From: Dichetophora obliterata
Lineage: Eukaryota > Arthropoda > Insecta > Diptera > Sciomyzidae
Reading direction: 5' to 3'
DNA: 64,000 bases
Assembly (NCBI GenBank): GCA_963920525.1
Contig: OY986438.1
Coordinates: 128,411,420-128,475,419, forward strand
In this document: positions 5,080-46,795 of the stretch, piece after piece
How the letters are laid out: every line of letters starts with the position of its first letter
Position numbering within the stretch: the first letter of the stretch is position 1
The notes under the pieces: generated by a model
Seen by the model: the letters and a program-made list of their open reading frames with translations, nothing else
Told to the model about the DNA's origin: nothing
Databases searched by the model: none
Made by a program: the position numbers and the translations under genes

Positions 5080-5310
5080 CTGTAAATTCGTTGACCTCTA
5101 CAATCTCAATGTTGTATGGTGTCGGCTTTTCCATATCATTAATCGGTTCTGTATCACTCAGTACCTCCTCAACAAGTACGCCTTGTTCTTCAGAAATCGT
5201 TTTATTTTCTGATTGAATTGTTGTTTCTCCATCTTCATTTTGTACTGATTTAAAAGTAGTTATGAATACGGGTTTCTCTGATTCAGTGTTAACGGGTATA
5301 GTTTTTTGCT
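5080..5310 (-). CDS. sls: sallimus small exon, PEVK-like linker
   Basis: A 231-bp exon (77 codons) begins after the acceptor AACACAG (5311-5317) and ends at a strong donor ACAG|GTGAGT. It is phase 1 at both ends, so it could be skipped without a frame change. The encoded peptide is acidic and contains a faint copy of the module core (KSVQNEDGETTIQSENKTI) followed by TPYNIEIVEV, the same order as in the large repeats. It links the 24-kb spring exon to the diverged PEVK exon and is separated from the former by a 181-bp intron (5311-5491). No separate function can be assigned. Confidence 0.82.
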
Positions 5311-5491: not shown

Positions 5492-8400
5492 CCTTAGAAA
5501 TTTGTTTTGAAGGTTTTTGTTTTCTTTGTTTGACTTTTGGCAACATTTCATCATCCAATGTACTAAGGTCTATTATATTAGAGAGACTTTCATTGCTCAC
5601 AACTCGAATCAGAGAAAAGGGTTCTTTTCCTTCCTCCTCAATCGTTTGAATTTGATAATACTCAGGTTCTGGAGATTTTTCCTTTTTGAAAGTACGTGTC
5701 TTAGTAATTTTCTTTCTTGGTTTTTTATCCTTAGTCAAAATCTCTGAAAACACAATTTCCTCTGGTAACTCCTCTATAGGAATGGGTTTTTGAATACTTT
5801 CTGAAGGATACATTTCTTCAACGTTTACTGAAGCAATAGGTGTATCGTCATCTTCTTCTTGTACGAATTGAATAGTCGTTATTTCATCCTTATCATCATC
5901 TAAGTGTTTTTTAATAGATCTAGTTTTAACAGTAGTCTTTTTAACTTTTCCTTGGGGAGAAGTCGTTTCAAAAACCGTTATATCCTCAGGCAACTCAACA
6001 CTTTGAAGTGGTTTCATAATGGAAAAATCATCCGTTAAAGGTTTCTGAGTAACTATGACAGAAACCAAAGGTTCACTACCATCACATTCGACAGTTTTTA
6101 TTTCAGTTTCTTCCTGAACTGATCCCTTTGTTTTTTTTATGACTCGCTTTTTGGTTTTCACAACCTGTGGAAAACCATCATCGTTAATAATTTCTTCCGT
6201 AATCGATTCTTCGGGCAGCTCAAAAACGGGATATTCTTCTTCATTTGGTACTTGTGGAAAGGGTTCACTGAATTCTTCCACTGTAACTTTTGTAACAGGA
6301 ACTTTCTCATATTCTTCCACAGTTTGAACTTTAGTAATTTCCATTTTGGGTCCGACAATTTTTTTAATAACCTTTGTTTTGATGACTGTTTTTTTCGGAG
6401 TTCCATCTTCCTTTTTAGACATAACAATAGCTTTTCGTTCAGGTAGTTCAAAGATTGAAACTTCATCTGATGGTTTTTGAACACGAATTCTCTTTTTCAA
6501 TTTATCATGTGAGGTAGCACTAGGTTTATATTCTATTGGAATTTCTTCAACAGTGACGGTGTATTCAGGCATTTTATCTTCTTCTTCAACAGTTTCAATT
6601 TTTGTGACTTCCTGTTTGTCGCCCTTGATCTTCTTGATAACACGAGTACGAATCTTGGTTTTCTTTGGCTTGCCTTCTTCAGTTACTGTTTCGATGACGC
6701 GAACTTCTTCTGGAAGCTCAGTCACATCCTTCGGCAGTTCTTCAACAGGTATCTCTTCTACTGTGACAGTAGTTTCTGGTTGTTTGTCATCTTCTTCAAC
6801 AGTTTCAATCTTTGTTACTTCCTGCTTGTCGCCTTTGATCTTCTTGATGACACGAGTACGAATCTTGGTTTTCTTTGGCTTGCCTTCTTCAGTTACTGTT
6901 TCGATGACACGAACTTCTTCTGGAAGCTCAGTCACATCTTTGGGCTGTTCTTCAACAGGTATTTCTTCTACTGTGACAGTAGTTTCTGGTTGTTTGTCAT
7001 CTTCTTCAACAGTTTCAATCTTTGTTACTTCCAGCTTGTCACCCTTAATCTTCTTGATAACACGAGTACGAATCTTGGTTTTCCTTGGCTTGCCTTCTTC
7101 AGTTACTGTTTCGATGACACGAACTTCTTCTGGAAGCTCAGTCACATCCTTGGGCTGTTCTTCTACAGGCACCTCTTCTATTGTGACAGTAGTTTCTGGT
7201 TGTTTGTCATCTTCTTCAACAGTTTCGATCTTTGTTACTTCCTGTTTGTCGCCTTTGATCTTCTTGATGACACGAGTACGAATTTTGGTTTTCTTTGGCT
7301 TGCCTTCTTCAGTTACTGTTTCGATGAAACGAATTTCTTCTGGAAGCTCAGTCACATCCTTGGGCTGTTCTTCAACAGGTATCTCTTCTACTGTGACAGT
7401 AGTTTCTGGTTGTTTGTCATCTTCTTCAACAGTTTCGATCTTTGTTACTTCCTGCTTGTCGCCTCTGATCTTCTTGATGACACGAGTACGAATCTTTGTT
7501 TTCTTTGGCTTGCCTTCTTCAGTTACTGTTTCTATGACACGAACTTCTTCAGGAAGCTCAGTCACATCCTTGGGCTGTTCTTCAACAGGTATCTCTTCTA
7601 CTGTGACAGTAGTTTCTGGTTGTTTGTCATCTTCTTCAACAGTTTCAATCTTTGTAACTTCCTGCTTGTCGCCTCTGATCTTCTTGATGACACGAGTACG
7701 AATCTTTGTTTTCTTTGGCTTGCCTTCTTCAGTTACTGTTTCTATGACACGAACTTCTTCTGGAAGCTCAGTCACATCCTTGGGCTGTTCTTCAACAGGT
7801 ATCTCTTCTACTGTGACAGTAGTTTCTGGTTGTTTGTCATCTTCTTCAACAGTTTCAATCTTTGTAACTTCCTGCTTGTCGCCTCTGATCTTCTTGATGA
7901 CACGAGTACGAATCTTGGTTTTCTTTGGCTTGCCTTCTTCAGTTACTGTTTCGATGACACGAACTTCTTCTGGAAGTTCAGTCACATCCTTGGGCTGTTC
8001 TTCAACAGGTATCTCTTCAACTGTGACAGTAGTTTCTGGTTGTTTGTCATCCTCTTCAACAGTTTCAATCTTTGTAACTTCCTGTTTGTCACCCTTGATC
8101 TTCTTGATAACACGAGTACGAATCTTGGTTTTCTTTGGCTTGCCTTCTTCAGTTACTGTTTCGATGACACGAAATTCTTCTGGAAGCTCAGTCACATTCT
8201 TGGGCTGTTCTTCAACAGGTATCTCTTCTACTGTGACAATAGTTTCTGGTTGTTTGTCATCTTCTTCAACAGTTTCAATCTTTGTAACTTCCTGCTTGTC
8301 GCCTCTGATCTTCTTGATGACACGAGTACGAATCTTAGTTTTCTTTGGCTTGCCTTCTTCAGTTACTGTTTCGATGACACGAACTTCTTCTGGAAGTTCA

Positions 8401-11400
8401 GTCACATCCTTGGGCTGTTCTTCAACAGGTATCTCTTCAACTGTGACAGTAGTTTCTGGTTGTTTGTCATCTTCTTCAACAGTTTCAATCTTTGTAACTT
8501 CCTGTTTGTCACCCTTGATCTTCTTGATAACACGAGTACGAATCTTGATTTTCTTTGGCTTGCCTTCTTCAGTTACTGTTTCGATGACACGAACTTCTTC
8601 TGGAAGCTCAGTCACATCCTTGGGCTGTTCTTCAACAGGTATCTCTTCTACTGTGACAGTAGTTTCTGGTTGTTTGTCATCTTCTTCAACAATTTCAATC
8701 TTTGTAACTTCCTGTTTGTCACCCTTGATCTTCTTGATGACACGAGTACGAATTTTGGTTTTCTTTGGCTTGCCTTCTTCAGTTACTGTTTCGATGACAC
8801 GAACTTCTTCTGGAAGTTCAGTCACATCTTTGGGCTGTTCTTCAACAGGTATCTCTTCTACTGTGACAGTAGTTTCTGGTTGTTTGTCATCTTCTTCAAC
8901 AGTTTCAATCTTTGTTACTTCCTGCTTGTCGCCTTTGATCTTCTTGATAACACGAGTACGAATCTTGGTTTTCTTTGGCTTGCCTTCTTCAGTTACTGTT
9001 TCTATGACACGAACTTCTTCTGGAAGCTCAGTCACATCCTTGGGCTGTTCTTCAACAGGTATCTCTTCTACTGTGACAGTAGTTTCTGGTTGTTTGTCAT
9101 CTTCTTCAACAGTTTCAATCTTTGTAACTTCCTGCTTGTCGCCTCTGGTCTTCTTGATGACACGAGTACGAATCTTGGTTTTCTTTGGCTTGCCTTCTTC
9201 AGTTACTGTTTCGATGACACGAACTTCTTCTGGAAGCTCAGTCACATCCTTCGGCTGTTCTTCAACAGGTATCTCTTCTACTGTGACAGTAGTTTCTGGT
9301 TGTTTGTCATCTTCTTCAACAGTTTCAATCATTGTAACTTCCTGCTTGTCGCCTCTGATCTTCTTGATGACACGAGTACGAATCTTTGTTTTCTTTGGCT
9401 TGCCTTCTTCAGTTACAGTTTCGATGACACGTACTTCTTCTGGAAGCTCAGTCACATCCTTGGGCTGTTCTTCAACAGGTATCTCTTCTACTGTGACAGT
9501 AGTTTCTGGTTGTTTGTCATCTTCTTCAACAGTTTCAATCTTTGTTACTTCCTGCTTGTCGCCTTTAATCTTCTTGATGACACGAGTACGAATCATGGTT
9601 TTCTTTGGCTTGCCTTCTTCAGTTACTGTTTCGATGACACGAACTTCTTCTGGAAGCTCAGTCACACCTTTGGGCTGTTCTTCAACAGGTATCTCTTCTA
9701 CTGTGACAGTAGTTTCTGGTTGTTTGTCATCTTCTTCAACAGTTTCAATTTTTGTTACTTCCTGTTTGTCGCCTTTGATCTTCTTGATGACACGAGTACG
9801 AATCTTAGTTTTCTTTGGCTTGCCTTCTTCAGTTACTGTTTCGATGACACGAACTTCTTCTGGAAGCTCAGTCACATTTTTGGGCTGTTCTTCAACAGGT
9901 ATCTCTTCTACTGTGACAGTAGTTTCTGGTTGTTTGTCATCTTCTTCAACAGTTTCAATCTTTGTTACTTCCTGCTTGTCGCCTTTGATCTTCTTGATGA
10001 CACGAGTACGAATCTTAGTTTTCTTTGGCTTGCCTTCTTCAGTTACTGTTTCGATGACACGAACTTCTTCTGGAAGTTCAGTCACACCTTTGGGCTGTTC
10101 TTCAACAGGTATCTCTTCTACTGTGACAGTAGTTTCTAGTTGTTTGTCATCTTCTTCAACAGTTTCAATCTTTGTAACTTCCTGTTTGTCACCCTTGATC
10201 TTCTTGATAACACGAGTACGAATCTTGGTTTTCTTTGGCTTGCCTTCTTCAGTTACTGTTTCGACGACACGAACTTCTTCTGGAAGCTCAGTCACATCTT
10301 TGGGCTGTTCTTCAACAGGTATCTCTTCTACTGTGACAGTAGTTTCTGGTTGTTTGTCATCTTCTTCAACAGTTTCGATCTTTGTTACTTCCTGTTTGTC
10401 GCCTTTGATCTTCTTGATGACACGAGTACGAATCTTAGTTTTCTTTGGCTTGCCTTCTTCAGTTACTGTTTCGATGACACGAACTTCTTCTGGAAGCTCA
10501 GTCACATCCTTCGGCTGTTCTTCAACAGGTATCTCTTCTACTGTGACAGTAGTTTCTGGTTGTTTGTCATCTTCTTCAACAGTTTCAATCTTTGTTACTT
10601 CCTGCTTGTCGCCTTTAATCTTCTTGATGACACGAGTACGAATCTTGGTTTTCTTTGGCTTGCCTTCTTCAGTTACTGTTTCGATGACACGAACTTCTTC
10701 TGGAAGCTCAGTCACATCTTTGGGCTGTTCTTCAACAGGTATCTCTTCTACTGTGACAGTAGTTTCTGGTTGTTTGTCATCTTCTTCAACAGTTTCAATC
10801 TTTGTTACTTCCTGTTTGTCGCCTTTAATCTTCTTGATGACACGAGTACGAATCTTGGTTTTCTTTGGCTTGCCTTCTTCAGTTACTGTTTCGATGACAC
10901 GAACTTCTTCTGGAAGCTCAGTCACATCTTTGGGCTGTTCTTCAACAGGTATCTCTTCTACTGTGACAGTAGTTTCTGGTTGTTTGTCATCTTCCTCAAC
11001 AGTTTCAATCTTTGTTACTTCCTGTTTGTCGCCTTTAATCTTATTGATGACACGAGTACGAATCTTGGTTTTCTTTGGCTTGCCTTCTTCAGTTACTGTT
11101 TCGATGACACGAACTTCTTCTGGAAGCTCAGTCACATCTTTGGGCTGTTCTTCAACAGGTATCTCTTCTACTGTGACAGTAGTTTCTGGTTGTTTGTCAT
11201 CTTCTTCAACAGTTTCAATCTTTGTTACTTCCTGCTTGTCGCCTTTGATCTTCTTGATGACACGAGTACGAATCTTAGTTTTCTTTGGCTTGCCTTCTTC
11301 AGTTACTGTTTCGATGACACGAACTTCTTCTGGAAGCTCAGTCACATCCTTGGGCTGTTCTTCAACAGGTATCTCTTCTACTGTGACAGTAGTTTCTGGT

Positions 11401-14400
11401 TGTTTGTCATCTTCTTCAACAGTTTCAATCTTTGTAACTTCCTGTTTGTCGCCTCTGATCTTCTTGATAAAACGAGTACGAATCTTGGTTTTCTTTGGCT
11501 TGCCTTCTTCAGTTACTGTTTCGATGACACGAACTTCTTCTGGAAGCTCAGTCACATCCTTGGGCTGTTCTTCAACAGGTATCTCTTCTACTGTGACAGT
11601 AGTTTCTGGTTGTTTGTCATCTTCTTCAACAGTTTCGATCTTTGTTACTTCCTGCTTGTCGCCTCTGATCTTCTTGATGACACGAGTACGAATCTTTGTT
11701 TTCTTTGGCTTGCCTTCTTCAGTTACTGTTTCGATGACACGAACTTCTTCTGGAAGCTCAGTCACATCTTTGGGCTGTTCTTCAACATTTATCTCTTCTA
11801 CTGTGACAGTAGTTTCTGGTTGTTTGTCATCTTCTTCAACAGTTTCAATCTTTGTAACTTCCTGTTTGTCACCCTTGATCTTCTTGATAACGCGAGTACG
11901 AATCTTTGTTTTCTTTGGCTTGCCTTCTTTAGCTACTGTTTCGATGACACGAACTTCTTCTGGAAGCTCAGTCACATCCTTGGGCTGTTCTTCAACAGGT
12001 ATCTCTTCTACTGTGACTGTAGTTTCTGGTTGTTTGTCATCTTCTTCAACAGTTTCGATCTTTGTTACTTCCTGCTTGTCGCCTTTGATCTTCTTGATGA
12101 CACGAGTACGAATCTTTGTTTTCTGTGGCTTGCCTTCTTCAGTTACTGTTTCTATAACACGAACTTCTTCTGGAAGCTCAGTCACATCCTTGGGCTGTTC
12201 TTCAACAGGTATCTCTTCTACTGTGACAGTAGTTTCTGGTTGTTTGTCATCTTCTTCAACAGTTTCAATCTTTGTAACTTCCTGCTTGTCGCCTCTGATC
12301 TTCTTGATGACACGAGTACGAATCTTGGTTTTCTTTGGCTTGCCTTCTTCAGTTACTGTTTCGATGACACGAACTTCTTCTGGAAGTTCAGTCACATCCT
12401 TGGGCTGTTCTTCAACAGGTATCTCTTCAACTGTGACAGTAGTTTCTGGTTGTTTGTCATCTTCTTCAACAGTTTCAATCTTTGTAACTTCCTGTTTGTC
12501 ACCCTTGATCTTCTTGATAACACGAGTACGAATCTTGGTTTTCTTTGGCTTGCCTTCTTCAGTTACTGTTTCGATGACACGAACTTCTTCTGGAAGCTCA
12601 GTCACATCATTGGGCTGTTCTTCAACAGGTATCTCTTCTACTGTGACAGTAGTTTCTGGTTGTTTGTCATCTTCTTCAACAGTTTCAATCTTTGTAACTT
12701 CCTGTTTGTCACCCTTGATCTTCTTGATGACACGAGTACGAATCTTGGTTTTCTTTGGCTTGCCTTCTTCAGTTACTGTTTCGATGACACGAACTTGTTC
12801 TGGAAGCTCGGTCACATACTTGGGCTGTTCTTCAACAGGTATCTCTTCTACTGTGACAGTAGTTTCTGGTTGTTTGTCATCTTCTTCAACAGTTTCAATC
12901 TTTGTTACTTCCTGTTTGTCACCCTTGATCTTCTTGATAACACGAGTACGAATCTTGGTTTTCTTTGGTTTGCCTTCTTCAGTTACTGTTTCGATGACAC
13001 GAACTTCTTCTGGAAGTTCAGTCACATCTTTGGGCTGTTCTTCAACAGGTATCTCTTCTACTGTGACAATAGTTTCTGGTTGTTTGTCATCTTCTTCAAC
13101 AGTTTCAATCTTTGTAACTTCCTGCTTGTCGCCTCTGATCTTCTTGATGACACGAGTACGAATCTTGGTCTTCTTTGGCTTGCCTTCTTCAGTTACTGTT
13201 TCTATGACACGAACTTCTTCTGGAAGCTCAGTCACATCCTTGGGCTGTTCCTCAACAGGTATCTCTTCTACTGTGACAGTAGTTTCTGGTTGTTTGTCAT
13301 CTTCTTCAACAATTTCAATCTTTGTTACTTCCTGTTTGTCACCCTTGATCTTCTTGATGACACGAGTACGAATTTTGGTTTTCTTTGGCTTGCCTTCTTC
13401 AGTTACTGTTTCGATGACACGAACTTCTTCTGGAAGTACAGTCACATCTTTGGGCTGTTCTTCAACAGGTATCTCTTCCACTGTGACAGTAGTTTCTGGT
13501 TGTTTGTCATCTTCTTCAACAGTTTCAATCTTTGTAACTTTCTGTTTGTCACCCTTGATTTTCTTGATAACACGAGTACGAATCTTGGTTTTCTTTAGCT
13601 TGCCTTCTTCAGTTACTGTTTCTATGACACGAACTTCTTCTGGAAGCTCAGTCACATCTTTGGGCTGTTCTTCAACAGGTATCTCTTCTACTGTGACAGT
13701 AGTTTCTGGTTGTTTGTCATCTTCTTCAACAGTTTCAATCTTTGTTACTACCTGCTTGTCGCCTTTGATCTTCTTGATGACACGAGTACGAATCTTAGTT
13801 TTCTTTGGCTTGCCTTCTTCAGTTACTGTTTCGATGACACGAACTTCTTCTGGAAGTTCAGTCACATCCTTGGGCTGTTCTTCAAAAGGTATCTCTTCTA
13901 CTGTGACAGTAGTTTCTGGTTGTTTGTCATCTTCTTCAACAGTTTCAATCTTTGTTACTTCCTGCTTGTCGCCTCTGGTCTTCTTGATGACACGAGTACG
14001 AATCTTAGTTTTCTTTGGCTTGTCGTCTTCAGTTACTGTTTCGATGCCACGAACTTCTTCTGGAAGCTCAGTCACATCCTTCGGCTGTTCTTCAACAGGT
14101 ATCTCTTCTACTGTGACAGTAGTTTCTGGTTGTTTGTCATCTTCTTCAACAGTTTCAATCTTTGTAACTTCCTGCTTGTCGCCTCTGATCTTCTTGATGA
14201 CACGAGTACGAATCTTGGTTTTCTTTGGTTTTCCTTCTTCAGTTACTGTTTCGATGACACGAACTTCTTCTGGAAGCTCAGTCACACCTTTGGGCTGTTC
14301 TTCAATAGGTATCTCTTCTACTGTGACAGTAGTTTCTGGTTGTTTGTCATCTTCTTCAACAGTTTCAATCTTTGTTACTTCCTGTTTGTCGCCTTTGATC

Positions 14401-17400
14401 TTCTTGATGACACGAGTACGAATCTTGGTTTTCTTTGGCTTGCCTTCTTCAGTTACCGTTTCGATGACACGAACTTCTTCTGGAAGCTCAGTCACACCTT
14501 TGGGCTGTTCTTCAACAGGTATCTCTTCTACTGTGACAGTAGTTTCTGGTTGTTTGTCATCTTCTTCAACAGTTTCAATCTTTGTTACTTCCTGTTTGTC
14601 GCCTTTGATCTTCTTGATGACACGAGTACGAATCTTGGTTTTCTTTGGCTTGCCTTCTTCAGTTACTGTTTCGATGACACGAACTACTTCTGGAAGCTCA
14701 GTCACATCTTTGGGCTGTTCTTCAACAGGTATCTCTTCTACTGTGACAGTAGTTTCTGGTTGTTTGTCATCTTCTTCAACAGTTTCAATCTTTGTTACTT
14801 CCTGCTTGTCGCCTTTAATCTTCTTGATGACACGAGTACGAATCTTAGTTTTCTTTGGCTTGCCTTCTTCAGTTACTGTTTCGATGACACGAACTTCTTC
14901 TGGAAGTTCAGTCACATCCTTGGGCTGTTCTTCAACAGGTATCTCTTCTACTGTGACAGTAGTTTCTGGTTGTTTGTCATCTTCTTCAACAGTTTCAATC
15001 TTTGTAACTTCCTGTTTGTCACCCTTGATCTTCTTGATAACACGAGTACGAATCTTGGTTTTCTTTGGCTTGCCTTCTTCAGTTACTGTTTCGATGACAC
15101 GAACTTCTTCTGGAAGTTCAGTCACATCTTTGGGCTGTTCTTTAACAGGTATCTCTTCTACAATGACAGTAGTTTCTGGTTGTTTGTCATCTTCTTCAAC
15201 AGTTTCAATCTTTGTAACTTCCTGTTTGTCACCCTTGATCTTCTTGATAACACGAGTACGAATCTTGGTTTTCTTTGGCTTGCCTTCTTCAGTTACTGTT
15301 TCTATGACACGAACTTCTTCTGGAAGCTCAGTCACATCTTTGGGCTGTTCTTCAACAGGTATCTCTTCTACTGTGACAGTAGTTTCTGGTTGTTTGTCAT
15401 CTTCTTCGACAGTTTCAATCTTTGTAACTTCCTGCTTGTCGCCTCTGGTCTTCTTGATGACACGAGTACGAATCTTGGTTTTCTTTGGCTTGCCTTCTTC
15501 AGTTACTGTTTCGATGACACGAACTTCTTCTGGAAGCTCAGTCACATCCTTCGGCTGTTCTTCAACAGGTATCTCTTCTACTGTGACAGTAGTTTCTGGT
15601 TGTTTGTCATCTTCTTCAACAGTTTCAATCTTTGTAACTTCCTGCTTGTCGCCTCTGATCTTCTTGATGACACGAGTACGAATCTTGGTTTTCTTTGGCT
15701 TGCCTTCTTCAGTTACTGTTTCGATGACACGAACTTCTTCTGGAAGCTCTGTCACATCCTTCGGCTGTTCTTCAACAGGTATCTCTTCTACTGTGACAGT
15801 AGTTTCTGGTTGTTTGTCATCTTCTTCAACAGTTTCAATCTTTGTTACTTCCTGCTTGTCGCCTTTAATTTTCTTGATGACACGAGTACGAATCTTGGTT
15901 TTCTTTGGCTTGCCTTCTTCAGTTACTGTTTCGATGACACGAACTTCTTCTGGAAGCTCAGTCACACCTTTGGGCTGTTCTTCAACAGGTATCTCTTCTA
16001 CTGTGACAGTAGTTTCTGGTTGTTTGTCATCTTCTTCAACAGTTTCAATCTTTGTTACTTCCTGTTTGTCGCCTTTGATCTTCTTGATGACACGAGTACG
16101 AATCTTGGTTTTCTTTGGCTTGCCTTCTTCAGTTACTGTTTCGATGACACGAACTTCTTCTGGAAGCTCAGTAACATCTTTGGGCTGTTCTTCAACAGGT
16201 ATCTCTTCTACTGTGACAGTAGTTTCTGGTTGTTTGTCATCTTCTTCAACAGTTTCAATCTTTGTTACTTCCTGCTTGTCGCCTTTGATCTTCTTGATGA
16301 CACGAGTACGAATCTTAGTTTTCTTTGGCTTGCCTTCTTCAGTTACTGTTTCGATGACACGAACTTCTTCTGGAAGCTCAGTCACACCTTTGGGCTGTTC
16401 TTCAACAGGTATCTCTTCTACTGTGACAGTAGTTTCTGGTTGTTTATCATCTTCTTCAACAGTTTCAATCTTTGTAACTTCCTGTTTGTCACCCTTGATC
16501 TTCTTGATAACACGAGTACGAATCTTGGTTTTCTTTGGCTTGCCTTCATCAGTTACTGTTTCGACGACACGAACTTCTTCTGGAAGCTCAGTCACATCTT
16601 TGGGCTGTTCTTCAACAGGTATCTCTTCTACTGTGACAGTAGTTTCTGGTTGTTTGTCATCTTCTTCAACAGTTTCAATCTTTGTTACTTCCTGCTTGTC
16701 GCCTTTGATCTTCTTGATGACACGAGTACGAATCTTGGTTTTCTTTGGCTTGCCTTCTTCAGTTACTGTTTCTATGACACGAACTTCTTCTGCAAGCTCA
16801 GACACATCCTTGGGCTGTTCTTCAACAGGTATTTCCTCTACTGTGACAGTAGTTTCTGGTTGTTTGCCATCTTCTTCAACAGTTTCAATCTTTGTAACTT
16901 CCTGCTTGTCGCCTCTGATCTTCTTGATGACACGAGTACGAATCTTGGTTTTCTTTGGCTTGCCTTCTTCACTTACTGTTTCTATGACACGAACTTCTTC
17001 AGGAAGCTCAGTCACATCCTTCGGCTGTTTTTCAACAGGTATCTCTTCTACTGTGACATTAGTTTCTGGTTGTTTGTCATCTTCTTCAACAGTTTCAATC
17101 TTTGTAACTTCCTGTTTGTCACCCTTGATCTTCTTGATAACACGAGTGCGAATCTTGGTTTTCTTTGGCTTGCCTTCTTCAGTTACTGTTTCGATGACAC
17201 GAACTTGTTCTGGAAGCTCAGTCACATCCCTGGGCTGTTCTTCAACAGGTATCTCTTCTACTGTGACAGTAGTTTCTGGTTGTTTGTCATCTTCTTCAAC
17301 AGTTTCAATCTTTGTAACTTCCTGCTTATCGCCCTTGATCTTCTTGATGACACGAGTACGAATCTTGGTTTTCTTTGGCTTACCTTCTTCAGTTACTGTT

Positions 17401-20400
17401 TCTATGACACGAACTTCTTCTGGAAGCTCAGTCACATCCTTGGGCTGTTCTTCAACAGGTATCTCTTCTACTGTGACAGTAGTTTCTGGTTGTTTGTCAT
17501 CTTCTTCAACAGTTTCAATCTTTGTAACTTCCTGCTTGTCTCCTCTGATCTTCATGATTACACGAGTACGAATCTTGGTTTTCTTTGGCTTGCCTTCTTC
17601 AGTTACTGTTTCGATCACACGAACTTCTTCTGGAAGCTCAGTCACATCTTTGGGCTGTTCTTCAACAGGTATCTCTTCTACTGTGACAGTAGTTTCTGGT
17701 TGATTGTCATCTTCTTCAACAGTTTCAATCTTTGTAACTTCCTGTTTGGCACCCTTGATCTTCTTGATGACACGAGTACGAATCTTGGTTTTCTTTGGTT
17801 TGCCTTCTTCAGTTACTGTTTCGATGACACGTACTTCTTCTGGAAGCTCAGTCACATCCTTCGGCTGTTCCTCAACAGGTATCTCTTCTACTGTGACAGT
17901 AGTTTCTGGTTGTTTGTCATCTTCTTCAACAGTTTCAATCTTTGTAAGTTCCTGTTTGTCACCCTTGATCTTCTTGATGACACGAGTACGAATCTTGGTT
18001 TTCTTTGGCTTGCCTTCTTCAGTTACTGTTTCTATGATACGAACTTCTTCTGGCAGCTCAGTCACATCCTTGGGCTGTTCTTCAACAGGTATCTCTTCTA
18101 CTGTGACAGTAGTTTCTGGTTGTTTGTCATCTTCTTCAACAGTTTCAATCTTTGTAACTTCCTGTTTGTCACCCTTGATCTTCTTGATGACACGAGTACG
18201 AATCTTGGTTTTCTTTGGCTTGCCTTCTTCAGTTACTGTTTCTATGACACGAACTTCTTCTGGAAGCTCAGTCACATCCTTGGGCTGTTCTTCAACAGGT
18301 ATCTCTTCTACTGTGACAGTAGTTTCTGGTTGTTTGTCATCTTCTTCAACAGTTTTAATATTTGTTACTTCCTGCTTGTTGCCTTTAATCTTCTTGATGA
18401 CACGAGTACGAATCTTGGTTTTCTTTGGCTTGCCTTCTTCAGTTACTGTTTCGATGACACGAACTTCTTCTGGAAGTTCAGTCACATCCTTGGGCTGTTC
18501 TTCAACAGGTATCTCTTCTACTGTGACAGTAGTTTCTGGTTGTTTGTCATCTTCTTCAACAGTTTCAATCTTTGTTACTTCCTGTTTGTCACCCTTGATC
18601 TTCTTGATGACACGAGTACGAATCTTGGTTTTCTTTGGCTTGCCTTCTTCAGTTACTGTTTCTATGACACGAACTTCTTCTGGAAGCTCAGTCACATCCT
18701 TCGGCTGTTCTTCAACAGGTATCTCTTCTACTGTGACAGTAGTTTCTGGTTGTTTGTCATCTTCTTCAACAGTTTCAATCTTTGTAACTTCCTGTTTGTC
18801 ACCCTTGATCTTCTTGATAACACGAGTACGAATCTTGGTTTTCTTTGGCTTGCCTTCTTTAGTTATTGTTTCGATGACACGAACTTCTTCTGGAAGCTCA
18901 GTCACATCCTTGGGCTGTTCTTCAACAGGTATCTCTTCTACTGTGACAGTAGTTTCTGGTTGTTTGTCATCTTCTTCAACAGTTTCAATTTTTGTAACTT
19001 CCTGTTTGTCACCCTTGATCTTCTTGATGACACGAGTACGAATCTTGGTTTTCTTTGGCTTGCCTTCTTCAGTTACTGTTTCTATGACACGAACTTCTTC
19101 TGGAAGCTCAGTCACATCCTTCGGCTGTTCTTCAACAGGTATCTCTTCTACTGTGACAGTAGTTTCTGGTTGTTTGTCATCTTCTTCAACAGTTTCAATC
19201 TTTGTAACTTCCTGTTTGTCACCCTTGATCTTCTTGAAAACACGAGTACGAATCTTGGTTTTCTTTGGCTTGCCTTCTTTAGTTACTGTTTCGATGACAC
19301 GAACTTCTTCTGGAAGCTCAGTCACATCCTTGGGCTGTTCTTCAACAGGTATCTCTTCTACTGTGACAGTAGTTTCTGGTTGTTTGTCATCTTCTTCAAC
19401 AGTTTCAATTTTTGTAACTTCCTGTTTGTCACCCTTGATCTTCTTGATGACACGAGTACGAATCTTGGTTTTCTTTGGCTTGCCTTCTTCAGTTACTGTT
19501 TCGATGACACGAACTTCTTCTGGAAGCTCAGTCACATCCTTGGGCTGTTCTTCAACAGGTATCTCTTCTACTGTGACAGTAGTTTCTGGTTGTTTGTCAT
19601 CTTCTTCAACAGTTTCAATCTTTGTAACTTCCTGCTTGTCGCCTCTGATCTTCTTGATGACACGAGTACGAATCTTGGTTTTCTTTGGCTTGCCTTCTTC
19701 AGTTACTGTTTCGATCACACGAACTTCTTCTGGAAGCTCAGTCACATCTTTGGGCTGTTCTTCAACAGGTATCTCTTCTACTGTGACAGTAGTTTCTGGT
19801 TGTTTGTCATCTTCTTCAACAGTTTCAATCTTTGTAAGTTCCTGTTTGTCACCCTTGATCTTCTTGATGACACGAGTACGAATCTTGGTTTTCTTTGGCT
19901 TGCCTTCTTCAGTTACTGTTTCGATGACACGTACTTCTTCTGGAAGCTCAGTCACAACCTTCGGCTGTTCCTCAACAGGTATCTCTTCTACTGTGACAGT
20001 AGTTTCTGGTTGTTTGTCATCTTCTTCAACAGTTTCGATCTTTGTTGCTTCCTGTTTGTCGCCTTTGATCTTCTTTATGACACGAGTACGAATCTTAGTT
20101 TTCTTTGGCTTGCCTTCTTCAGTTACTGTTTCGATGACACGAACTTCTTCTGGAAGCTCAGTCACATCTTTGGGCTGTTCTTCAACAGGTATCTCTTCTA
20201 CTGTGACAGTAGTTTCTGGTTGTTTGTCATCTTCTTCAACAGTTTCAATCTTTGTTACTTCCTGCTTGTCGCCTTTAATCTTCTTGATGACACGAGTACG
20301 AATCTTGGTTTTCTTTGGCATGCCTTCTTCAGTTACTGTTTCGATGACACGAACTTCTTCTGGAAGTTCATTCACATCCTTAGTCTGTTCTTCAAAAGGT

Positions 20401-23400
20401 ATCTCTTCTACTGTGACAGTAGTTTCTGGTTGTTTGTCATCTTCTTCAACAGTTTCAATCTTTGTAACTTCCTGTTTGTCACCCTTGATCTTCTTGATAA
20501 CACGAGTACGAATCTTGGTTTTCTTTGGCTTGCCTTCTTCAGTTATTGTTTCGATGACACGAACTTCTTCTGGAAGCTCAGTTACATCAATCGGCTGTTC
20601 TTCAACAGGTATCTCTTCTACTGTGACAGTAGTTTCTGGTTGTTTGTCATCTTCTTCAACAGTTTCAATCTTTGTAACTTCCTGCTTGTCGCCTCTGATC
20701 TTCTTGATGACACGAGTACGAATCTTGGTTTTCTTTGGCTTACCTTCTTCAGTTACTGTTTCTATGACACGAACTTCTTCTGGAAGCTCAGTCACATCTC
20801 TGGGCTGTTCTTCAACAGGTATCTCTTCTACTGTGACAGTAGTTTCTGGTTGTTTGTCATCTTCTTCAACAGTTTCAATCTTTGTAACTTCCTGCTTGTC
20901 GCCTCTGATCTTCTTGATGACACGAGTACGAATCTTGGTTTTCTTTGGCTTGCCTTCTTCAGTTACTGTTTCTATGACACGAACTTCTTCTGGAAGCTCA
21001 GTCACATCCTTGGGCTGTTCTTCAACAGGTATCTCTTCTACTGTGACAGTAGTTTCTGGTTGTTTGTCATCTTCTTCAACAGTTTCAATCTTTGTAACTT
21101 CCTGCTTGTTTCCTCTGATCTTCTTGATGACACGAGTACGAATCTTAGTTTTCTTTGGCTTGCCTTCTTCAGTTACTGTTTCGATGACACGAACTTCTTC
21201 TGGAAGCTCAGTCACATCTTTGGGCTGTTCTTCAACAGGTATCTCTTCTACTGTGACAGTAGTTTCTGGTTGTTTGTCATCTTCTTCAACAGTTTCAATC
21301 TTTGTAACTTCCTGCTTGTCACCCTTGATCTTCTTGATGACACGAGTACGAATCTTGGTTTTCTGTGGCTTGCCTTCTTCAGTTACTGTTTCGATGACAC
21401 GTACTTCTTCTGGAAGCTCAGTCACATCCTTCGGCTGTTCTTCAACAGGTATCTCTTCTACTGTGACAGTAGTTTCTGGTTGTTTGTCATCTTCTTCAAC
21501 AGTTTCGATCTTTGTTACTTCCTGCTTGTCGCCTTTGATCTTCTTGATGACACGAGTACGAATCTTGGTTTTCTTTGGCTTGCCTTCTTCAGTTACTGTT
21601 TCGATGACACGAACTTCTTCTGGAAGTTCAGTCACATCCTTAGGCTGTTCTTCAAAAGGTATCTCTTCTACTGTGACAGTAGTTTCTGGTTGTTTGTCAT
21701 CTTCTTCAAAAGTTTCAATTTTTGTAACTTCCTGTTTGTCGCCTTTAATCTTCTTGATGACACGAGTACGAATCTTGGTTTTCTTTGGCTTGCCTTCTTC
21801 AGTTATTGTTTCGATGACTCGAACTTCTTCTGGAAGCTCCGTTACATCAATCGGCTGTTCTTCAACAGGTATCTCTTCTACTGTGACAGTAGTTTCTGGT
21901 TGTTTGTCATCTTCTTCAACGGTTTCAATCTTTGTAACTTCCTGCTTGTCGCCTCTGATCTTCTTGATGACACGAGTACGAATCTTGGTTTTCTTTGGCT
22001 TGCCTTCTTCAGTTACTGTTTCTAGGACACGAATTTCTTCTGGAAGCTCAGTCACATCCCTGGGCTGTTCTTCAACAGGTATCTCTTCTACTGTGACAGT
22101 AGTTTCTGGTTGTTTGTCATCTTCTTCAACAGTTTCAATCTTTGTAACTTCCTGTTTGTCACCCTTGATCTTCTTGATGACACGAGTACGAATCTTGGTT
22201 TTCTTTGGTTTGCCTTCTTCAGTTACTGTTTCGATGACACGAACTTGTTCTGGAAGCTCGGTCACATCCTTGGGCTGTTCTTTAACAGGTATCTCTTCTA
22301 CTGTGACAGTAGTTTCTGGTTTTTTGCCATCTTCTTCAACAGTTTCAATCTTTGTTACTTCCTGTTTGTCACCTTTGATCTTCTTGATAACACGAGTACG
22401 AATCTTGGTTTTCTTTGGCTTGCCTTCTTCAGTTATTGTTTCGATGACACGAACTTCTTCTGGAAGCTCAGTTGTATCAATCGGCTTTTCTTCAACAGGT
22501 ATCTCTTCTACTGTGACAGTAGTTTCTGGTTGTTTGTCATCTTCTTCAACAGTTTCAATCTTTGTAACTTCCTGTTTGTCACCTTTGATCTTCTTGATAA
22601 CACGAGTACGAATCTTGGTTTTCTTTGGCTTGCCTTCTTCAGTTACTGTTTCTATGACACGAACTTCTTCTGGAAGCTCAGTCACATCCCTGGGCTGTTC
22701 TTCAACAGGTATCTCTTCTACTGTGACAGTAGTTTCTGGTTGTTTGTCATCTTCTTCAACAGTTTCGATCTTTGTTACTTCCTGCTTGTCGCCTTTAATC
22801 TTCTTGATGACACGAGTACGAATCTTGGTTTTCTTTGGCTTGCCTTCTTCAGTTACTGTTTCGATGACACGAACTTCTTCTGGAAGTTCAGTCACATCCT
22901 TGGGCTGTTCTTCAACAGGTATCTCTTCTACTGTGACAGTAGTTTCTGGTTGTTTGTCATCTTCTTCAACAGTTTCAATCTTTGTTACTTCCTGTTTGTC
23001 GCCTTTAATCTTCTTGATGACACGAGTACGAATCTTGGTTTTCTTTGGCTTGCCTTCTGCAGTTACTGTTTCGATGACACGAACTTCTTCTGGAAGTTCA
23101 GTCACATCCTTGGGCTCTTCTTCAACAGGTATCTCTTCTACTGTGACAGTAGTTTCTGGTTGTTTGTCATCTTCTTCAACAGTTTCAATCTTTGTAACTA
23201 CCAGTTTGTCACCCTTGATCTTCTTGATGACACGAGTACGAATCTTGGTTTTCTTTGGCTTGCCTTCTTCAGTTACTGTTTCGATGACACGAACTTCTTC
23301 TGGAAGCTCAGTCACATAATTCGGCTGTTCTTCAACAGGTATCTCTTCTACTGTGAAAGTAGTTTCTGGTTGTTTGTCATCTTCTTCAACAGTTTCAATA

Positions 23401-26400
23401 TTTGTAACTTCCTGCTTGTCGCCTCTGATCTTCTTGATGACACGAGTACGAATCTTGGTTTTCTTTGGCTTGCCTTCTTCAGTTACTGTTTGGATGACAC
23501 AAACTTGTTCTGGAAGCTCGGTCACATCCTTGGGCTGTTCTTCAAAAGGTATCTCTTCTACTGTGACGGTAGTTTCTGGTTGTTTGTCATCTTCTTCAAC
23601 AGTTTCAATCTTTGTAACTTCCTGTTTGTCACCCTTGATCTTCTTGATAACACGAGTACGAATCTTGGTTTTTTTTGGCTTGCCTTCTTCAGTTACTGTT
23701 TCTATGACACGAACTTCTTCTGGAAGCTCAGTCACATCTTTGGGCTGTTCTTCAACAGGTATCTCTTCAACTGTGACAGTAGTTTCTGGTTGTTTGTCAT
23801 CTTCTTCAACAGTTTCAATCTTTGTAACTTCCTGTTTGTCACCCTTGATCTTCTTGATGACACGAGTACGAATCTTGGTTTTCTTTGGCTTGGCTTCTTC
23901 AGTTACTGTTTCGATGACACGAACTTCTTCTGGAAGCTCAGTCACATCCTTGGTCTGTTCTTCAAAAGGTATCTCTTCTACTGTGACAGTAGTTTCTGGT
24001 TGTTTGTCATCTTCTTCAACAGTTTCAATCTTTGTTACTTCCTGTTTGTCACCCTTGATATTCTTGATAACACGAGTACGAATCTTGGTTTTCTTTGGCT
24101 TGCCTTCTTCAGTTACTGTTTCGATGACACGAACTTCTTCTGGAAGCTCAGTCACATCCTTGGGCTGTTCTTCAACAGGTATCTCTTCTACTGTGACAGT
24201 AGTTTCTGGCTGTTTGTCATCTTCTTCAACAGTTTCAATCTTTGTAACTTCTTGTTTGTCGCCTCTGATCTTCTTGATGACACGAGTACGAATCTTGGTT
24301 TTCTTTGGCTTGCCTTCTTCAGTTACTGTTTCGATGACACAAACTTGTTCTGGAAGCTCAGTCACATCTTTGGGCTGTTCTTCAACAGGTATCTCTTCAA
24401 CTGTGACAGTAGTTTCTGGTTGTTTGTCATCTTCTTCAACAGTTTCAATCTTTGTAACTTCCTGTTTGTCACCCTTGATCTTCTTGATGACACGAGTACG
24501 AATCTTGGTTTTTTTTGGCTTGCCTTCTTCAGTTACTGTTTCGATGACACGAACTTCTTCTGGAAGTTCAGTCACATCCTTGGGCTGTTCTTCAACAGGT
24601 ATCTCTTCTACTGTGACAGTAGTTTCTGGTTGCTTGTCATCTTCTTCAACAAATTCAATCTTTGTAACTTCCTGTTTGTCACCCTTGATCTTCTTGATAA
24701 CACGAGTACGAATCTTGGTTTTCTTTGGCTTGCCTTCTTCAGTTACTGTTTCGATGACACGAACTTGTTCTGGAAGCTCGGTCACATCCTTGGGCTGTTC
24801 TTCAAAAGGTATCTCTTCTACTGTGACAGTAGTTTCTGGTTGTTTGTCATCTTCTTCAACAGTTTCAATCTTTGTAACTTCCTGTTTGTTACCCTTGATC
24901 TTCTTGATAACACGAGTATGAATCTTGGTTTTCTTTGGCTTGCCTTCTGCTGTTACTGTTTCGATGACACGAACTTCTTCTGGAAGCTCAGTCACATCCC
25001 TGGGCTGTTCTTCAACAGGTATCTCTTCTACTGTGACAGTAGTTTCTGGTTGTTTGTCATCTTCTTCAACAGTTTCAATTTTTGTAACTTCTTGTTTGTC
25101 GCCTCTGATCTTCTTGATGACACGAGTACGAATCTTTGTTTTCTTTGGCCTGCCTTCTTCAGTAACTGTTTCGATAACACGAACTTCTTCTGGAAGCGTA
25201 GTCACATCCTTGGGCTGTTTTTCAACAGGTATCTCTTCTACTGTGACAGTAGTTTCTGGTTGTTTGTCATCTTCTTCAACAGTTTCAATCTTTGTTACTT
25301 CCTGTTTGTCACCCTTGATCTTCTTGATAACACGAGTACGAATCTTGGTTTTCTTTGGCTTGCCTTCTTCAGTTACTGTTTCGATGACACGAACTTCTTC
25401 TGGAAGCTCTGTCACATCCTTCGGCTGTTCTTTAACAGGTATCTCTTCTACTGTGACAGTAGTTTCTGGTTGTTTGTCATCTTCTTCAACAGTTTCGATC
25501 TTTGTAACTTCCTGTTTGTCACCCTTGATCTTCTTGATGACACGAGTACGAATCTTGGTTTTCTTTGGCTTGCCTTCTTCAGTCACTGTTTCGATGACAC
25601 GAACTTGTTCTGGAAGCTCGGTCACATCTTTGGGCTGTTCTTCAACAGGTATCTCTTCTACTGTGACAGTAGTTTCTGGTTGTTTGTCATCTTCTTCAAC
25701 AGTTTCAATCTTTGTAACTTCCTGTTTGTCACCCTTGATCTTCTTGATAACACGAGTACGAATCTTGGTTGTCTTTGGCTTGCCTTCTTCAGTTACTGTT
25801 TCTATGACACGAACTTCTTCTGGAAGCTCAGTCACATCCTTGGGCTGTTCTTCAACAGGTATCTCTTCTACTGTGACAGTAGTTTCTGGTTGTTTGTCAT
25901 CTTCTTCAACAGTTTCAATCTTTGTAACTTCCTGTTTGTCACCCTTGATCTTCTTGATAACACGAGTACGAATCTTGGTTTTCTTTGGCTTTCCTTCTTC
26001 AGTTACTGTTTCGATGACACGAACTTCTTCTGGAAGCTCAGTCACATCTTTGGGCTGTTCTTCAACAGGTATCTCTTCTACTGTGACAGTAGTTTCTGGT
26101 TGTTTGTCATCTTCTTCAACAGTTTCAATCTTAGTAACTTCCTGCTTGTCGCCTCTGATCTTCTTGATGACACGAGTACGAATCTTGGTTTTCTTTGGCT
26201 TGCCTTCTTCAGTTACTGTTTCTATGACACGAACTTCTTCTGGAAGCTCAGTCACATCCTTGGGCTGTTCTTCAACAGGTATCTCTTCTACTGTGACAGT
26301 AGTTTCTGGTTGTTTGTCATCTTCTTCAACAGTTTCAATCTTTGTAACTTCCTGTTTGTCACCCTTGATCTTCTTGATAACACGAGTACGAATCTTGGTT

Positions 26401-29400
26401 TTCTTTGGCTTTCCTTCTTCAGTTACTGTTTCGATGACACGAACTTCTTCTGGAAGCTCAGTCACATCTTTGGGCTGTTCTTCAACAGGTATCTCTTCTA
26501 CTGTGACAGTAGTTTCTGGTTGTTTGTCATCTTCTTCAACAGTTTCAATCTTAGTAACTTCCTGCTTGTCGCCTCTGATCTTCTTGATGACACGAGTACG
26601 AATCTTGGTTTTCTTTGGCTTGCCTTCTTCAGTTACTGTTTCTATGACACGAACTTCTTCTGGAAGCTCAGTCACATCCTTGGGCTGTTCTTCAACAGGT
26701 ATCTCTTCTACTGTGACAGTAGTTTCTGGTTGTTTGTCATCTTCTTCAACAGTTTCAATCTTTGTAACTTCCTGTTTGTCACCCTTGATCTTCTTGATAA
26801 CACGAGTACGAATCTTGGTTTTCTTTGGCTTTCCTTCTTCAGTTACTGTTTCGATGACACGAACTTCTTCTGGAAGCTCAGTCACATCTTTGGGCTGTTC
26901 TTCAACAGGTATCTCTTCTACTGTGACAGTAGTTTCTGGTTGTTTGTCATCTTCTTCAACAGTTTCAATCTTAGTAACTTCCTGCTTGTCGCCTCTGATC
27001 TTCTTGATGACACGAGTACGAATCTTGGTTTTCTTTGGCTTGCCTTCTTCAGTTACTGTTTCTATGACACGAACTTCTTCTGGAAGCTCAGTCACATCCT
27101 TGGGCTGTTCTTCAACAGGTATCTCTTCTACTGTGACAGTAGTTTCTGGTTGTTTGTCATCTTCTTCAACAGTTTCAATCTTTGTAACTTCCTGCTTGTC
27201 GCCTCTGATCTTCTTGATGACACGAGTACGAATCTTGGTTTTCTTTGGCTTGCCTTCTTCAGTTACTGTTTCGATGACACGGACTTCTTCCGGAAGCTCC
27301 GTCACATCTTTGGGCTGTTCTTCAACAGGTATCTCTTTTACTGTGACAGTAGTTTCTGGTTGTTTGTCATCTTCTTCAACAGTTTCAATCTTTGTAACTT
27401 CCTGTTTGTCACCCTTGATCTTCTTGATAACACGAGTACGAATCTTGGTTTTCTTTGGCTTGCCTTCTTCAGTTACTGTTTCTATGACACGAACTTCTTC
27501 TGGAAGCTCAGTCACATCCTTGGGCTGTTCTTCAACAGGTATCTCTTCTACTGTGACAGTAGTTTCTGGTTGTTTGTCATCTTCTTCAACAGTTTCAATC
27601 TTTGTAACTTCCTGCTTGTCGCCTCTGATCTTCTTGATGACACGAGTACGAATCTTGGTTTTCTTTGGCTTGCCTTCTTCAGTTACTGTTTCGATGACAC
27701 GAACTTCTTCTGGAAGCTCAGTCACATCCTTGGGCTGTTCTTTAACAGGTATCTCTTCTACTGTGACAGTAGTTTCTGGTTGTTTATCATCTTCTTCAAC
27801 GGTTTCAATCTTTGTAATTTCCTGTTTGTCGCCTTTGATCTTTTTGATGACACGAGTACGAATCTTTGTTTTCTTTGGCTTGCCTTCTTCACTAACTGTT
27901 TCGATGACATGTACTTCTTCTGGGAGCTCAGTCACATCCTTCGGCTGTTCTTCAACAGGTATCTCTTCTACTGTGACAGTAGTTTCTGGTTGTTTGTCAT
28001 CTTCTTCAACAGTTTCAATCTTTGTTACTTCCTGCTTGTCGCCTTTGATCTTTTTGATGACACGAGTACGAATCTTGGTTTTCTTTGGCTTGCCTTCTTC
28101 AGTTACTGTTTCGATGACACGAACTTCTTCTGGAAGCTCTGTCACATCCTTCGGCTGTTCTTCAAAAGGTATCTCTTCTACTGTGACAGTAGTTTCTGGT
28201 TGTTTGTCATCTTCTTCAACAGTTTCGATCTTTGTTACTTCCTGCTTGTCACCCTTGATCTTCTTGATAACACGAGTACGAATCTTGGTTTTCTTTGGTT
28301 TGCCTTCTTCAGTTACTGTTTCTATGACACGAACTTCTTCTGGAAGCTCAGTCACATCTTTGGGCTGTTCTTCAACAGGTATCTCTTCCACTGTGACAGT
28401 AGTTTCTGGTTGTTTGTCATCTTCTTCAACAGTTTCAATCTTTGTAACTTCCTGTTTGTCACCCTTGATCTTCTTGATAACACGAGTATGAATCTTGGTT
28501 TTCTTTGGCTTGCCTTCTTCAGTTACTGTTTCGATGACACGGACTTCTTCCGGAAGCTCCGTCACATCTTTGGGCTGTTCTTCAACAGGTATCTCTTTTA
28601 CTGTGACAGTAGTTTCTGGTTGTTTGTCATCTTCTTCAACAGTTTCAATCTTTGTAACTTCCTGCTTGTCGCCTCTGATCTTCTTGATGACACGAGTACG
28701 AATCTTTGTTTTCTTTGGCTTGCCTTCTTCAGTAACTGTTTCGATGACACGTACGTCTTCTGGAAGCTCAGTCACATCCTTGGGATGTTCTTCTACTGGA
28801 ATTTCTTTTACTGTGACAGTTGTTTCTGGTTGTTTGTCATCTTCTTCAACAGTTTCTATCTTTGTTACTTCCTGTTTGTCGCCTTTGATCTTCTTGATGA
28901 CGCGAGTACGAATCTTGGTTTTCTTTGGCTTGCCTTCTTCAGTAACTGTTTCGATGACACGAACTTCTTCTGGAAGCTCAGTCACATCCTTGGGCTGTTC
29001 TTCAACAGGTATCTCTTCTACTGTGACAGTAGTTTCTGGTTGTTTGTCATCTTCTTCAACAGTTTCAATCTTTGTTACTTCCTGTTTGTCGCCTTTGATC
29101 TTCTTGATGACACGAGTACGAATCTTGGTTTTCTTTGGCTTTCCTTCTTCAGTAACTGTTTCGATGACACGTACTTCTTCTGGAAGTTCAGTCACATCCT
29201 TGGGCTGTTCTTCAACAGGTATCTCTTCTACTGTGACAGTAGTTTCTGGTTGTTTGTCATCTTCTTCAACAGTTTCAATCTTTGTTACTTCCTGTTTGTC
29301 GCCTTTGATCTTCTTGATGACACGAGTACGAATCTTGGTTTTCTTTGGCTTGCCTTCTTCAGTAACTGTTTCGATTACACGAATTTCTTCTGGAAGTTCG

Positions 29401-29671
29401 GTCACTTCCTTGGGCTGTTCTTCAACAGGTATCTCTTCTACTGTGACAGTAGTTTCTGGTTGTTTGTCATCTTCTTCGACAGTTTCAATTTTTGTGACTT
29501 CCTGTTTGCCACCCTTGATCTTCTTGATGACACGAGTGCGAATCTTTTTATTTGTCGTCTTACCGTCTTCATTTATTGTGTCTATGAATTTAACTTCTTC
29601 AGGTAGTTCGGTTGCTCTTTGTTGCTGATTTTCCAAAGATTTTTGATTCAGTGTTTGTTGTGGTGTGTTCT
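5492..29671 (-). CDS. sls: sallimus giant 24.18-kb exon: 110-module PEVK spring
   Basis: One uninterrupted minus-strand exon of 24,180 bp encodes about 8,060 residues of the insect titin (sallimus) elastic region. I place the acceptor at CATAG|AG (29672), which satisfies phase 1 and gives an N-terminal lead ENTPQQTLNQKSLENQQQ. A second phase-compatible AG lies about 40 bp further in. The donor is AAGG|GTAAGAAC at 5492. The exon holds a short lead, then 110 modules of exactly 70 residues (6501-29600), then four diverged modules each opening with ELPE, then a short tail ending QISKG. PEVK residues make up about 59% of the consensus module, with no cysteine and no globular domain. In the titin family such sequence is an extensible, disordered molecular spring in the I-band. 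Both ends are phase 1, so the exon is symmetrical. Its size is extraordinary for a single coding exon. Open translation past the donor to a stop at 5316 is intron read-through. Confidence 0.93.
5560..6500 (-). repeat. four diverged PEVK modules flanking the homogeneous array
   Basis: Immediately downstream (in the gene) of the 110-unit array come four units of similar length that keep the order ELPE..., a Thr/Lys-rich basic stretch with VIKK or SIKK, then an acidic VEE-type end. Examples are ELPERKAIVMSKKEDGTPKK, ELPEESITEEIINDDGFPQ, ELPEDITVFETTSPQGKVKK and ELPEEIVFSEILTKDKKPRK. They vary in length and share little exact DNA with the array. Confidence 0.8.
20341..22100 (-). repeat. 1,260-bp (six-module) duplication inside the PEVK array
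   Basis: A run of unusual variants at 20371-20820 recurs 1,260 bp later at 21631-22080: TTCAAAAGGT, then GTTATTGTT, then GTTACATCAATCGGC in the same order and spacing. A few bases differ between the copies, so it is older than the 420-bp repeats. Confidence 0.7.
25861..27120 (-). repeat. three identical 420-bp higher-order (two-module) repeats inside the PEVK array
   Basis: Blocks 25861-26280, 26281-26700 and 26701-27120 read identically line by line. They share private markers, for example TTAGTAACTT at 26131, 26551 and 26971 and TTTCCTTCTTC near 25989, 26409 and 26829. This is a dimer of two different 210-bp modules copied in tandem. Confidence 0.9.
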
Positions 29672-29882
29672 CTATGGTTGTGTCTTGTGTCGTGTGTTTT
29701 GGGGTGTAAGTTGTTTGTGTTGTATCTGTGTAAAAGATTGTTATATAAGTGTGAATTTTTTGAAAATGCTGTGAAATTTTTGTTTTGTGTAATATGTGTT
29801 TTTGTTGTTGGGTCTGATAGGGATTTGGAAGTTTTACGCCATTTGTTGTTAGTTTTGTTAATTATTGAACTTTTATACTCAC

Positions 29883-46688: not shown

Positions 46689-46795
46689 CTATAGATACGA
46701 ATGGAGTTGCATTTGAATTCATAGAAAAAAAAATCAAAGAAGAGGTTGTCGTTTCGTTCTTCCTTAAAAAGTAGTCCTAAACTTGAATACTATAC

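Follow-up and report, generated by a model that had tools for sequence, protein, structure and literature searches.

A 24-kb coding exon of 110 tandem PEVK modules in the predicted sallimus gene of the fly Dichetophora obliterata

How can a single coding exon consist almost entirely of one repeated unit, and what would a muscle protein do with its product? This question is raised by a 64,000-nucleotide stretch of the genome of Dichetophora obliterata (assembly GCA_963920525.1, contig OY986438.1; hereafter the window). Its minus strand carries a giant exon, termed exon B below, that is largely made of 110 tandem modules of 70 residues rich in proline, glutamate, valine and lysine (PEVK). Homology identifies the gene as sallimus (sls), which encodes the I-band titin of insects, and the lineages of Teleopsis and Glossina place it in a schizophoran fly. 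The observation of a giant repeat exon is confirmed. Exon B is very probably the main spring exon of sls, translated in one piece of about 0.9 MDa, skippable and setting I-band length, as judged from its sequence.

A scan of the window for open reading frames, in letters that are A, C, G and T only and without Ns, finds a minus-strand frame of 8,181 codons at 5319-29861 that contains no stop. A first-pass annotation of this DNA had proposed a single giant coding exon with phase-matched splice sites, and the DNA reads accordingly: 24,234 bp free of stops, with phase 1 at both ends. Its proposed limits, 5492-29671, were right on one side. The donor, CTAAGG/GTAAGA after 5492, stands, but the acceptor at 29671 is preceded by ...CAACCATAG, with a pyrimidine fraction of 0.40, compared to 0.55-0.65 at three other acceptors scored. 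An in-phase acceptor at 29726 (...CAATCTTTTACACAG followed by AT) scores 0.60, and with it the exon becomes 54 bp longer upstream. The product of an exon starting at 29725 opens DTTQTTYTPKHTTQDT, with its counterpart in the same place in Glossina P0033 (DTTQTPHIPEHTIQDT) and Teleopsis P0006 (DTTQTHTSEHKPHNQT). Because of the better upstream acceptor and this DTTQT start, which is kept in two flies, the start of exon B is put at 29725, and a span of 29725-5492 is more likely than one of 29671-5492.

Counted along the reading frame from residue 84 (the first ELPEE), from 29609 down to 6510, all 110 modules are exactly 70 residues long, and neither a stop nor an indel occurs across the 23.1 kb of the array. 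Tandem Repeats Finder (TRF) agrees, with a period of 210, 109.4 copies, 95% matches and 0% indels at 6573-29546. The module consensus is ELPEEVRVIETVTEEGKPKKTKIRTRVIKKIKGDKQEVTKIETVEEDDKQPETTVTVEEIPVEEQPKDVT, to which the modules are on average 97.5% identical in amino acids and 96.9% in nucleotides; 105 of the 110 are distinct as DNA and 73 as protein. The earlier count of 110 modules of exactly 70 residues is thus correct for the regular array, but as a tally for the exon it is short by four further diverged modules that follow the array. This exon B tail is 49% identical to Glossina P0018 and 57% identical to Drosophila P0025. The calculated mass of the array is 887 kDa, as had been estimated (about 0.9 MDa). 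Its composition also agrees with the insect titin-type PEVK proposed at the outset: P, E, V and K account for 57% of array residues, and every one of the 157 segments of 250 residues in exon B (157/157) exceeds 40% P+E+V+K, the threshold per 250 residues for PEVK-rich sequence given in PMC12063666 (cited throughout from the part of its text available).

The differences among the modules show how the array has been constrained. Among 108 inner modules there are 649 differences from the consensus, comprising 469 synonymous, 180 missense and 0 nonsense changes, while about 176, 453 and 20, respectively, would be expected for the same number without selection. Third codon positions hold 484 of the 649, and the nonsynonymous-to-synonymous ratio (pN/pS) over all differences is 0.15. 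When the 161 variants are counted once each, about 5 nonsense variants are expected and 0 are observed (p ~0.006, hand calculation). Moreover, pN/pS falls with variant frequency, from 0.85 for variants seen once to 0.37 for those in 2-3 modules, 0.30 in 4-10 modules and 0.04 in more than 10. This means that a single module can change at almost no cost, and that the change is weeded out once it spreads.

The commonest variants are dispersed from end to end of the array, and similarity hardly declines with distance (Mantel r 0.05, permutation p 0.09), although modules no more than three apart are slightly more alike (p 0.02). Module identity is 0.93 within the protein of the window, compared to 0.78 with Teleopsis and 0.60 with the mosquito Armigeres; by this comparison, each species has its own version of the module. 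Uniformity differs between arrays, and within-protein module identity ranges from 0.50 to 0.95 among 12 proteins compared. The commonest spacing is 70 residues in the window, 71 in Teleopsis, 83 in Armigeres, 76 in Rhamnusium P0001, and alternates between 74 and 82 in Vanessa. Six JGI titins (P0002, P0003, P0004, P0007, P0008 and P0009) are 98.9-99.97% alike, and P0002 is longer by exactly one 73-residue module, so that at the level of their sequences the six show a copy-number variant of one unit. Unequal exchange and gene conversion over the full length would hold the array uniform within each species, and selection would act on module variants as they spread. The locus displays concerted evolution within a coding exon, with selection visible on spreading variants. 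There is also a local higher-order repeat at modules ~11-17, where 1,003 bp are exact at a lag of two modules; the next longest exact stretch is 583 bp, in the same place, followed by one of 305 bp.

The module is not confined to this fly. Three protein searches returned 37 distinct proteins, with near-duplication among six JGI proteins and between two Trichoplusia isoforms. The module is found in 37 of 37 with an iterated profile and in 36 of 37 with the first profile, which finds none in P0019. Named insects contribute 26 of the 37, annotated as titin, titin-like, hypothetical or uncharacterised (UniRef calls three moth ones hemolin), and the remaining 11 include six JGI proteins called titin. 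Flies, mosquitoes, beetles and moths all have the family; there are 85-86 modules in Vanessa, 76-77 in a JGI source and 114 in the window. Several of the proteins from other insects are partial, and their counts are lower bounds. The searches reach only 0.55-1.75 times the query length, one of them scored only 7,973 candidates sharing most words, and the longest protein returned has 7,892 residues, so that full-length titins, and possibly larger arrays, lay beyond their reach. The JGI proteins (6,759-6,832 residues, contigs of 31 kb and more) suggest a further single frame of about 20 kb, because metagenome gene callers do not splice. Since the module family is widespread, with up to 86 modules per protein, exon B belongs to a known kind, of which it is an extreme and strongly homogenised case. 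No paper on the fold of the module or on such arrays in flies was found among the titles and abstract starts listed, which is no proof of absence.

The exons around exon B (Table 1) place it in sls. An I-set domain match (E 4.7e-18 at 51184-51528) identifies a sallimus immunoglobulin (Ig) domain on the N-terminal side of the spring. In Teleopsis P0006 the order is Ig exon, small exon, exon A and array, and in Glossina P0018 it is exon B tail, exon C and exon D; both are collinear with the window. Exons A, C and D have matches in the titins of Glossina, Drosophila and Teleopsis; exon A and Teleopsis share 25% identity in 2,251 columns (E 9e-137). In exon D the array module recurs seven times in diverged form (profile scores 13.7-38.0), with lysine-rich and other linkers in between, which makes the module the building unit of the wider PEVK region. 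The exon or exons with a partial Ig domain may be optional or terminal; the former is suggested because they are not at this place in the Teleopsis protein.

Table 1. Features of the sls locus in the window, in the order of transcription
Feature	Positions	Strand	Remarks
sls Ig I-set exon	51184..51489, boundaries approximate	-	90% identical to Teleopsis dalmanni titin, 102 residues
Small sls exon (GIVGSKDYRKPEWVIHMEEMQKALK)	50760..50836, boundaries approximate	-	match to Teleopsis P0006
Exon(s) with partial Ig domain and unique sequence	45670..46752, within reading frame 45625-46776	-	match beetle and moth titins
Exon A, long unique fast-evolving exon upstream of the array	29883..36506	-	donor GT at 29882
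Exon B, giant PEVK exon	5492..29725	-	24,234 bp, 8,078 codons, without stop, phase 1-1
Tandem module array	6510..29609	-	110 units of 210 bp / 70 residues
Exon B end with four diverged modules	5493..6449	-	75-76 residue spacing between the four
Exon C	5080..5310	-	77 codons, phase 1-1; 64% identical to Glossina P0018 over 69 residues
Exon D, second PEVK exon, cut by window edge	1..4540	-	38% identical to Glossina P0018, 1,555 columns

Could the array be something other than a spring-coding exon of this size? Openness alone is weak coding evidence in a repeat, because two plus-strand frames over the array are open as well, in stretches of up to 3,740 codons, yet interrupted by stops. Tandem DNA arrays stay open in several frames through repetition alone, and this would also be expected of a satellite-like tandem repeat or a pseudogene with no coding role. 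Such an origin is extremely improbable here, given the excess of changes at third positions (484/649), the pN/pS of 0.15 with no nonsense change, the conserved flanking exons and splice sites, and the conservation of the module at the protein level with other insects. A length inflated or altered by assembly, with fewer or more modules in the true gene, deserves more weight and is still improbable. At 23.1 kb the array exceeds many long reads, and one local block, near modules 11-17, is exact over 1,003 bp at a two-module lag. This is, however, the longest exact repeat in register, so no multi-kilobase block has been copied exactly. In addition, 105 of 110 modules are distinct as DNA, the 23.1 kb contain zero indels and zero stops, and proteins with 76-86 modules exist in other insects. 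Module pairs differ at about 9.5 of 210 bases, which is enough for accurate long reads to place the modules.

Several points weigh against exon B as the main sls spring exon in the form given here. The copy number of 110 comes from one assembly and is provisional. The Fn3 end of sls and most of its Ig domains lie outside the window. Cryptic splicing within the array is possible: a few GT sites score like real donors, the best being AAGGTAAGC in 2 of 110 modules, and 108 of 2,871 AG sites inside the array reach a pyrimidine fraction of 0.6. Selection against cryptic donors was considered and rejected. GTAAG occurs 4 times in the array, compared to a mean of 21 (lowest 11) over 300 synonymous shuffles, and this deficit is not claimed as selection because the modules are copies of each other. 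At 25 of the 31 third positions of this kind, a silent C/T change is present in only 0-2 of 108 modules, and the value at codon 16 (2/108) is therefore unexceptional.

A different proposal concerns the physics of the module and is compatible with exon B as the sls spring exon. It holds that each module is a small foldable four-stranded beta-meander of alternating charge (acidic-basic-acidic-acidic), and that the 110 weak units unzip singly under load. In AlphaFold2 models of three array modules, built with real relatives, strands lie near 5-12, 18-32, 35-46 and 52-61 of each (mean predicted local distance difference test, pLDDT, 71; predicted template modelling score, pTM, 0.34; middle module mostly 74-87). 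An exon D module shows the same strand plan (pLDDT 82.6, pTM 0.58). The exon D and array modules have no significant pairwise match and are linked by the iterated profile, with four relatives common to both alignments. In an alignment of which 25 of 38 sequences were considered, the consensus positions G, RVIKK, G-KQE-TEI and P-TTVTV are common to flies, mosquitoes, beetles and moths; a species-weighted count on the same 25 sequences gives about 60 consensus positions, and at about 37 of these a single residue accounts for more than half. The charge pattern S1<0, S2>0, S3<=0 occurs in 95.6% of 1,364 modules and in 95.3% of those outside the window, in a sample picked by a profile that favours the pattern and in which the JGI rows are near-duplicates. 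However, in 29 of 32 proteins the hydrophobic spacing typical of strands does not exceed that of shuffles. Spacing beyond 2 standard deviations (sd) is strand-type in 3 of 32 and helix-type in 6 of 32, the window being among the latter, and its modules have helix-type spacing in excess (10.1 vs 7.0, sd 0.4). The module also lacks an aromatic core, and fold searches gave no clear match to any solved fold. Foldable modules are, all told, rather unlikely, and this estimate was lowered slightly because the hydrophobic-spacing test went against strands. More doubtful is the broader proposal that insect PEVK is, in place of an entropic coil, a chain of more than 100 charge-zippered, reversibly foldable beta-meanders forming a so far unrecognised domain family of flies, mosquitoes, beetles and moths, with species tuning the length of I-band and sarcomere by array expansion and homogenisation, which in exon B would have reached 110 copies. 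Should the module fold, the usual view of insect PEVK, that of a spring without shape, would have to be revised. Several family matches look like chance matches of a charged repeat and were set aside, namely Pfam TetR_C_38 (44.6 and 29 bits, above the curated cut-off), Pfam DUF6013 and others (below their own cut-offs), and the PDB sequence 1si2 (E 0.54).

Folded or not, exon B as the sls spring exon implies a role in muscle. The 110 modules would be translated as one extensible stretch of about 0.9 MDa. Gene structure and homology suggest that this spring would join the Ig domains N-terminally via exon A and more spring C-terminally via exons C and D. Both boundaries of exon B are in phase 1, and its omission would leave the reading frame intact. 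In Drosophila, flight muscle omits the PEVK exons of sls and larval muscle retains them (PMC12063666). By analogy with Drosophila exons 31 and 32, muscles with long I-bands, for example those of the larval body wall and the leg, would most likely retain exon B, and flight muscle would most likely leave it out. Removal of about 1,700 residues of Drosophila sls PEVK leaves Sls about 0.5 um shorter and the sarcomere about 1.5 um shorter, and insertion of about 4 kb makes the sarcomere about 1 um longer (PMC12063666). On this precedent, a retained exon B would lengthen I-band titin and would thus set the length of the I-band and, by feedback, of the sarcomere. Exon B should therefore, by analogy, act like the Drosophila PEVK exons at larger scale.

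The scale itself had been described in terms that need revision. The stretched length first given, nearly 2.8 um, agrees with the 2.7-2.8 um computed for the fully stretched array. That this would be longer than an insect half-sarcomere fails as a general statement: relaxed larval Drosophila sarcomeres measure 8.5 um and flight sarcomeres about 3.4 um (PMC12063666), and the larval half of about 4.25 um exceeds the stretched array. The array is longer than the flight-muscle half (~1.7 um) and the leg half (~2.5 um, for a sarcomere of ~5 um). In Drosophila, the effect of a shorter or longer sls spring on the length of the sarcomere is greater than the change in the spring (PMC12063666). Extrapolation at about 0.75-0.9 nm of sarcomere per residue predicts that exon B would make larval sarcomeres about 6-7 um longer, which would be visible in the light microscope. 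With its uniform spring of about 7,700 residues inside a single exon that can be skipped, exon B would be a natural experiment far beyond the engineered range, and a natural test of spring length setting sarcomere length.

The window holds several other elements. A mariner-type transposase frame at 47870-48793 (+) lies between sls exons on the opposite strand (Transposase_1 E 7.7e-28); at its start, HTH_48 is matched over its last 20 positions only. Reverse-transcriptase and endonuclease fragments from retroelements of the non-LTR type at 38820-40262 (-), 53891-54664 (+), 57630-58556 (+) and 60316-61365 (+) lie between or upstream of the sls exons found. Near the exon with the partial Ig domain, at 44445-45122, there is a 339-bp unit in two head-to-tail copies that are 99% alike. 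An Rfam scan of the window gave no match, nor did an NCBIfam scan of three pieces.

How does exon B compare with known systems? Vertebrate titin also has a PEVK region, which lies in the I-band, is extensible and is rich in P, E, V and K. Its PPAK units have about 28 residues, compared to 70 in the module here, and no PPAK family appears among Pfam matches at E<=1 for the three modules scanned (a family scan, in which the motif was not aligned). Crayfish I-connectin, like sls, is an arthropod I-band titin; compared by description only, it is reportedly a protein with very long extensible regions in giant sarcomeres, in work said to be by Fukuzawa from 2001. Closer relatives are Vanessa P0010, JGI P0002, Henosepilachna P0011, Rhamnusium P0001, Armigeres P0005 and Teleopsis P0006, which, like the window, have long tandem arrays of the same module family. 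These six differ from it in having fewer modules (25-86) and a spacing that is 71-83 residues, mixed, or in alternating pairs of about 150-156, and four of the six arrays are less uniform (within-protein identity 0.58-0.95). Drosophila sls P0025 and P0035 carry the same module type as the window (ELPEEVRVVETISEDGKPKKKKIRTRVIKK..., with 71-residue spacing), which in P0035 follows exon-A-like sequence, while P0025 matches the tail of exon B.

Exons 31 and 32 of Drosophila sls come from the same gene and are the same kind of exon as exon B, as compared through partial Drosophila pieces; they are springs whose use is optional (PMC12063666). Exon B, at 8,078 codons, is more than 4 times the size of exon 32, which codes for about 1,700 residues (PMC12063666). 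The PEVK of projectin is described as sequence-divergent and unstructured in the available part of PMC13322953; unlike it, the sls module has a consensus across insects and a kept charge order. As for size among exons in general, a literature search for the largest ones gave no usable ranking, and nothing found in it coupled PKZILLA-1 with an exon. Giant exons are known from MUC16 and human titin. The first-pass statement that exon B is larger than any coding exon gives way to the caddisfly Phryganopsyche brunnea, in which h-fibroin exon 2 measures 27,606 bp, and 28,008 bp in a second allele (PMC12576367, Table 2, cited from the part available). Like exon B, it is a single giant repetitive coding exon, and its alleles vary in module content (PMC12576367); it encodes an unrelated silk protein and, at 27.6-28.0 kb, is larger than exon B.

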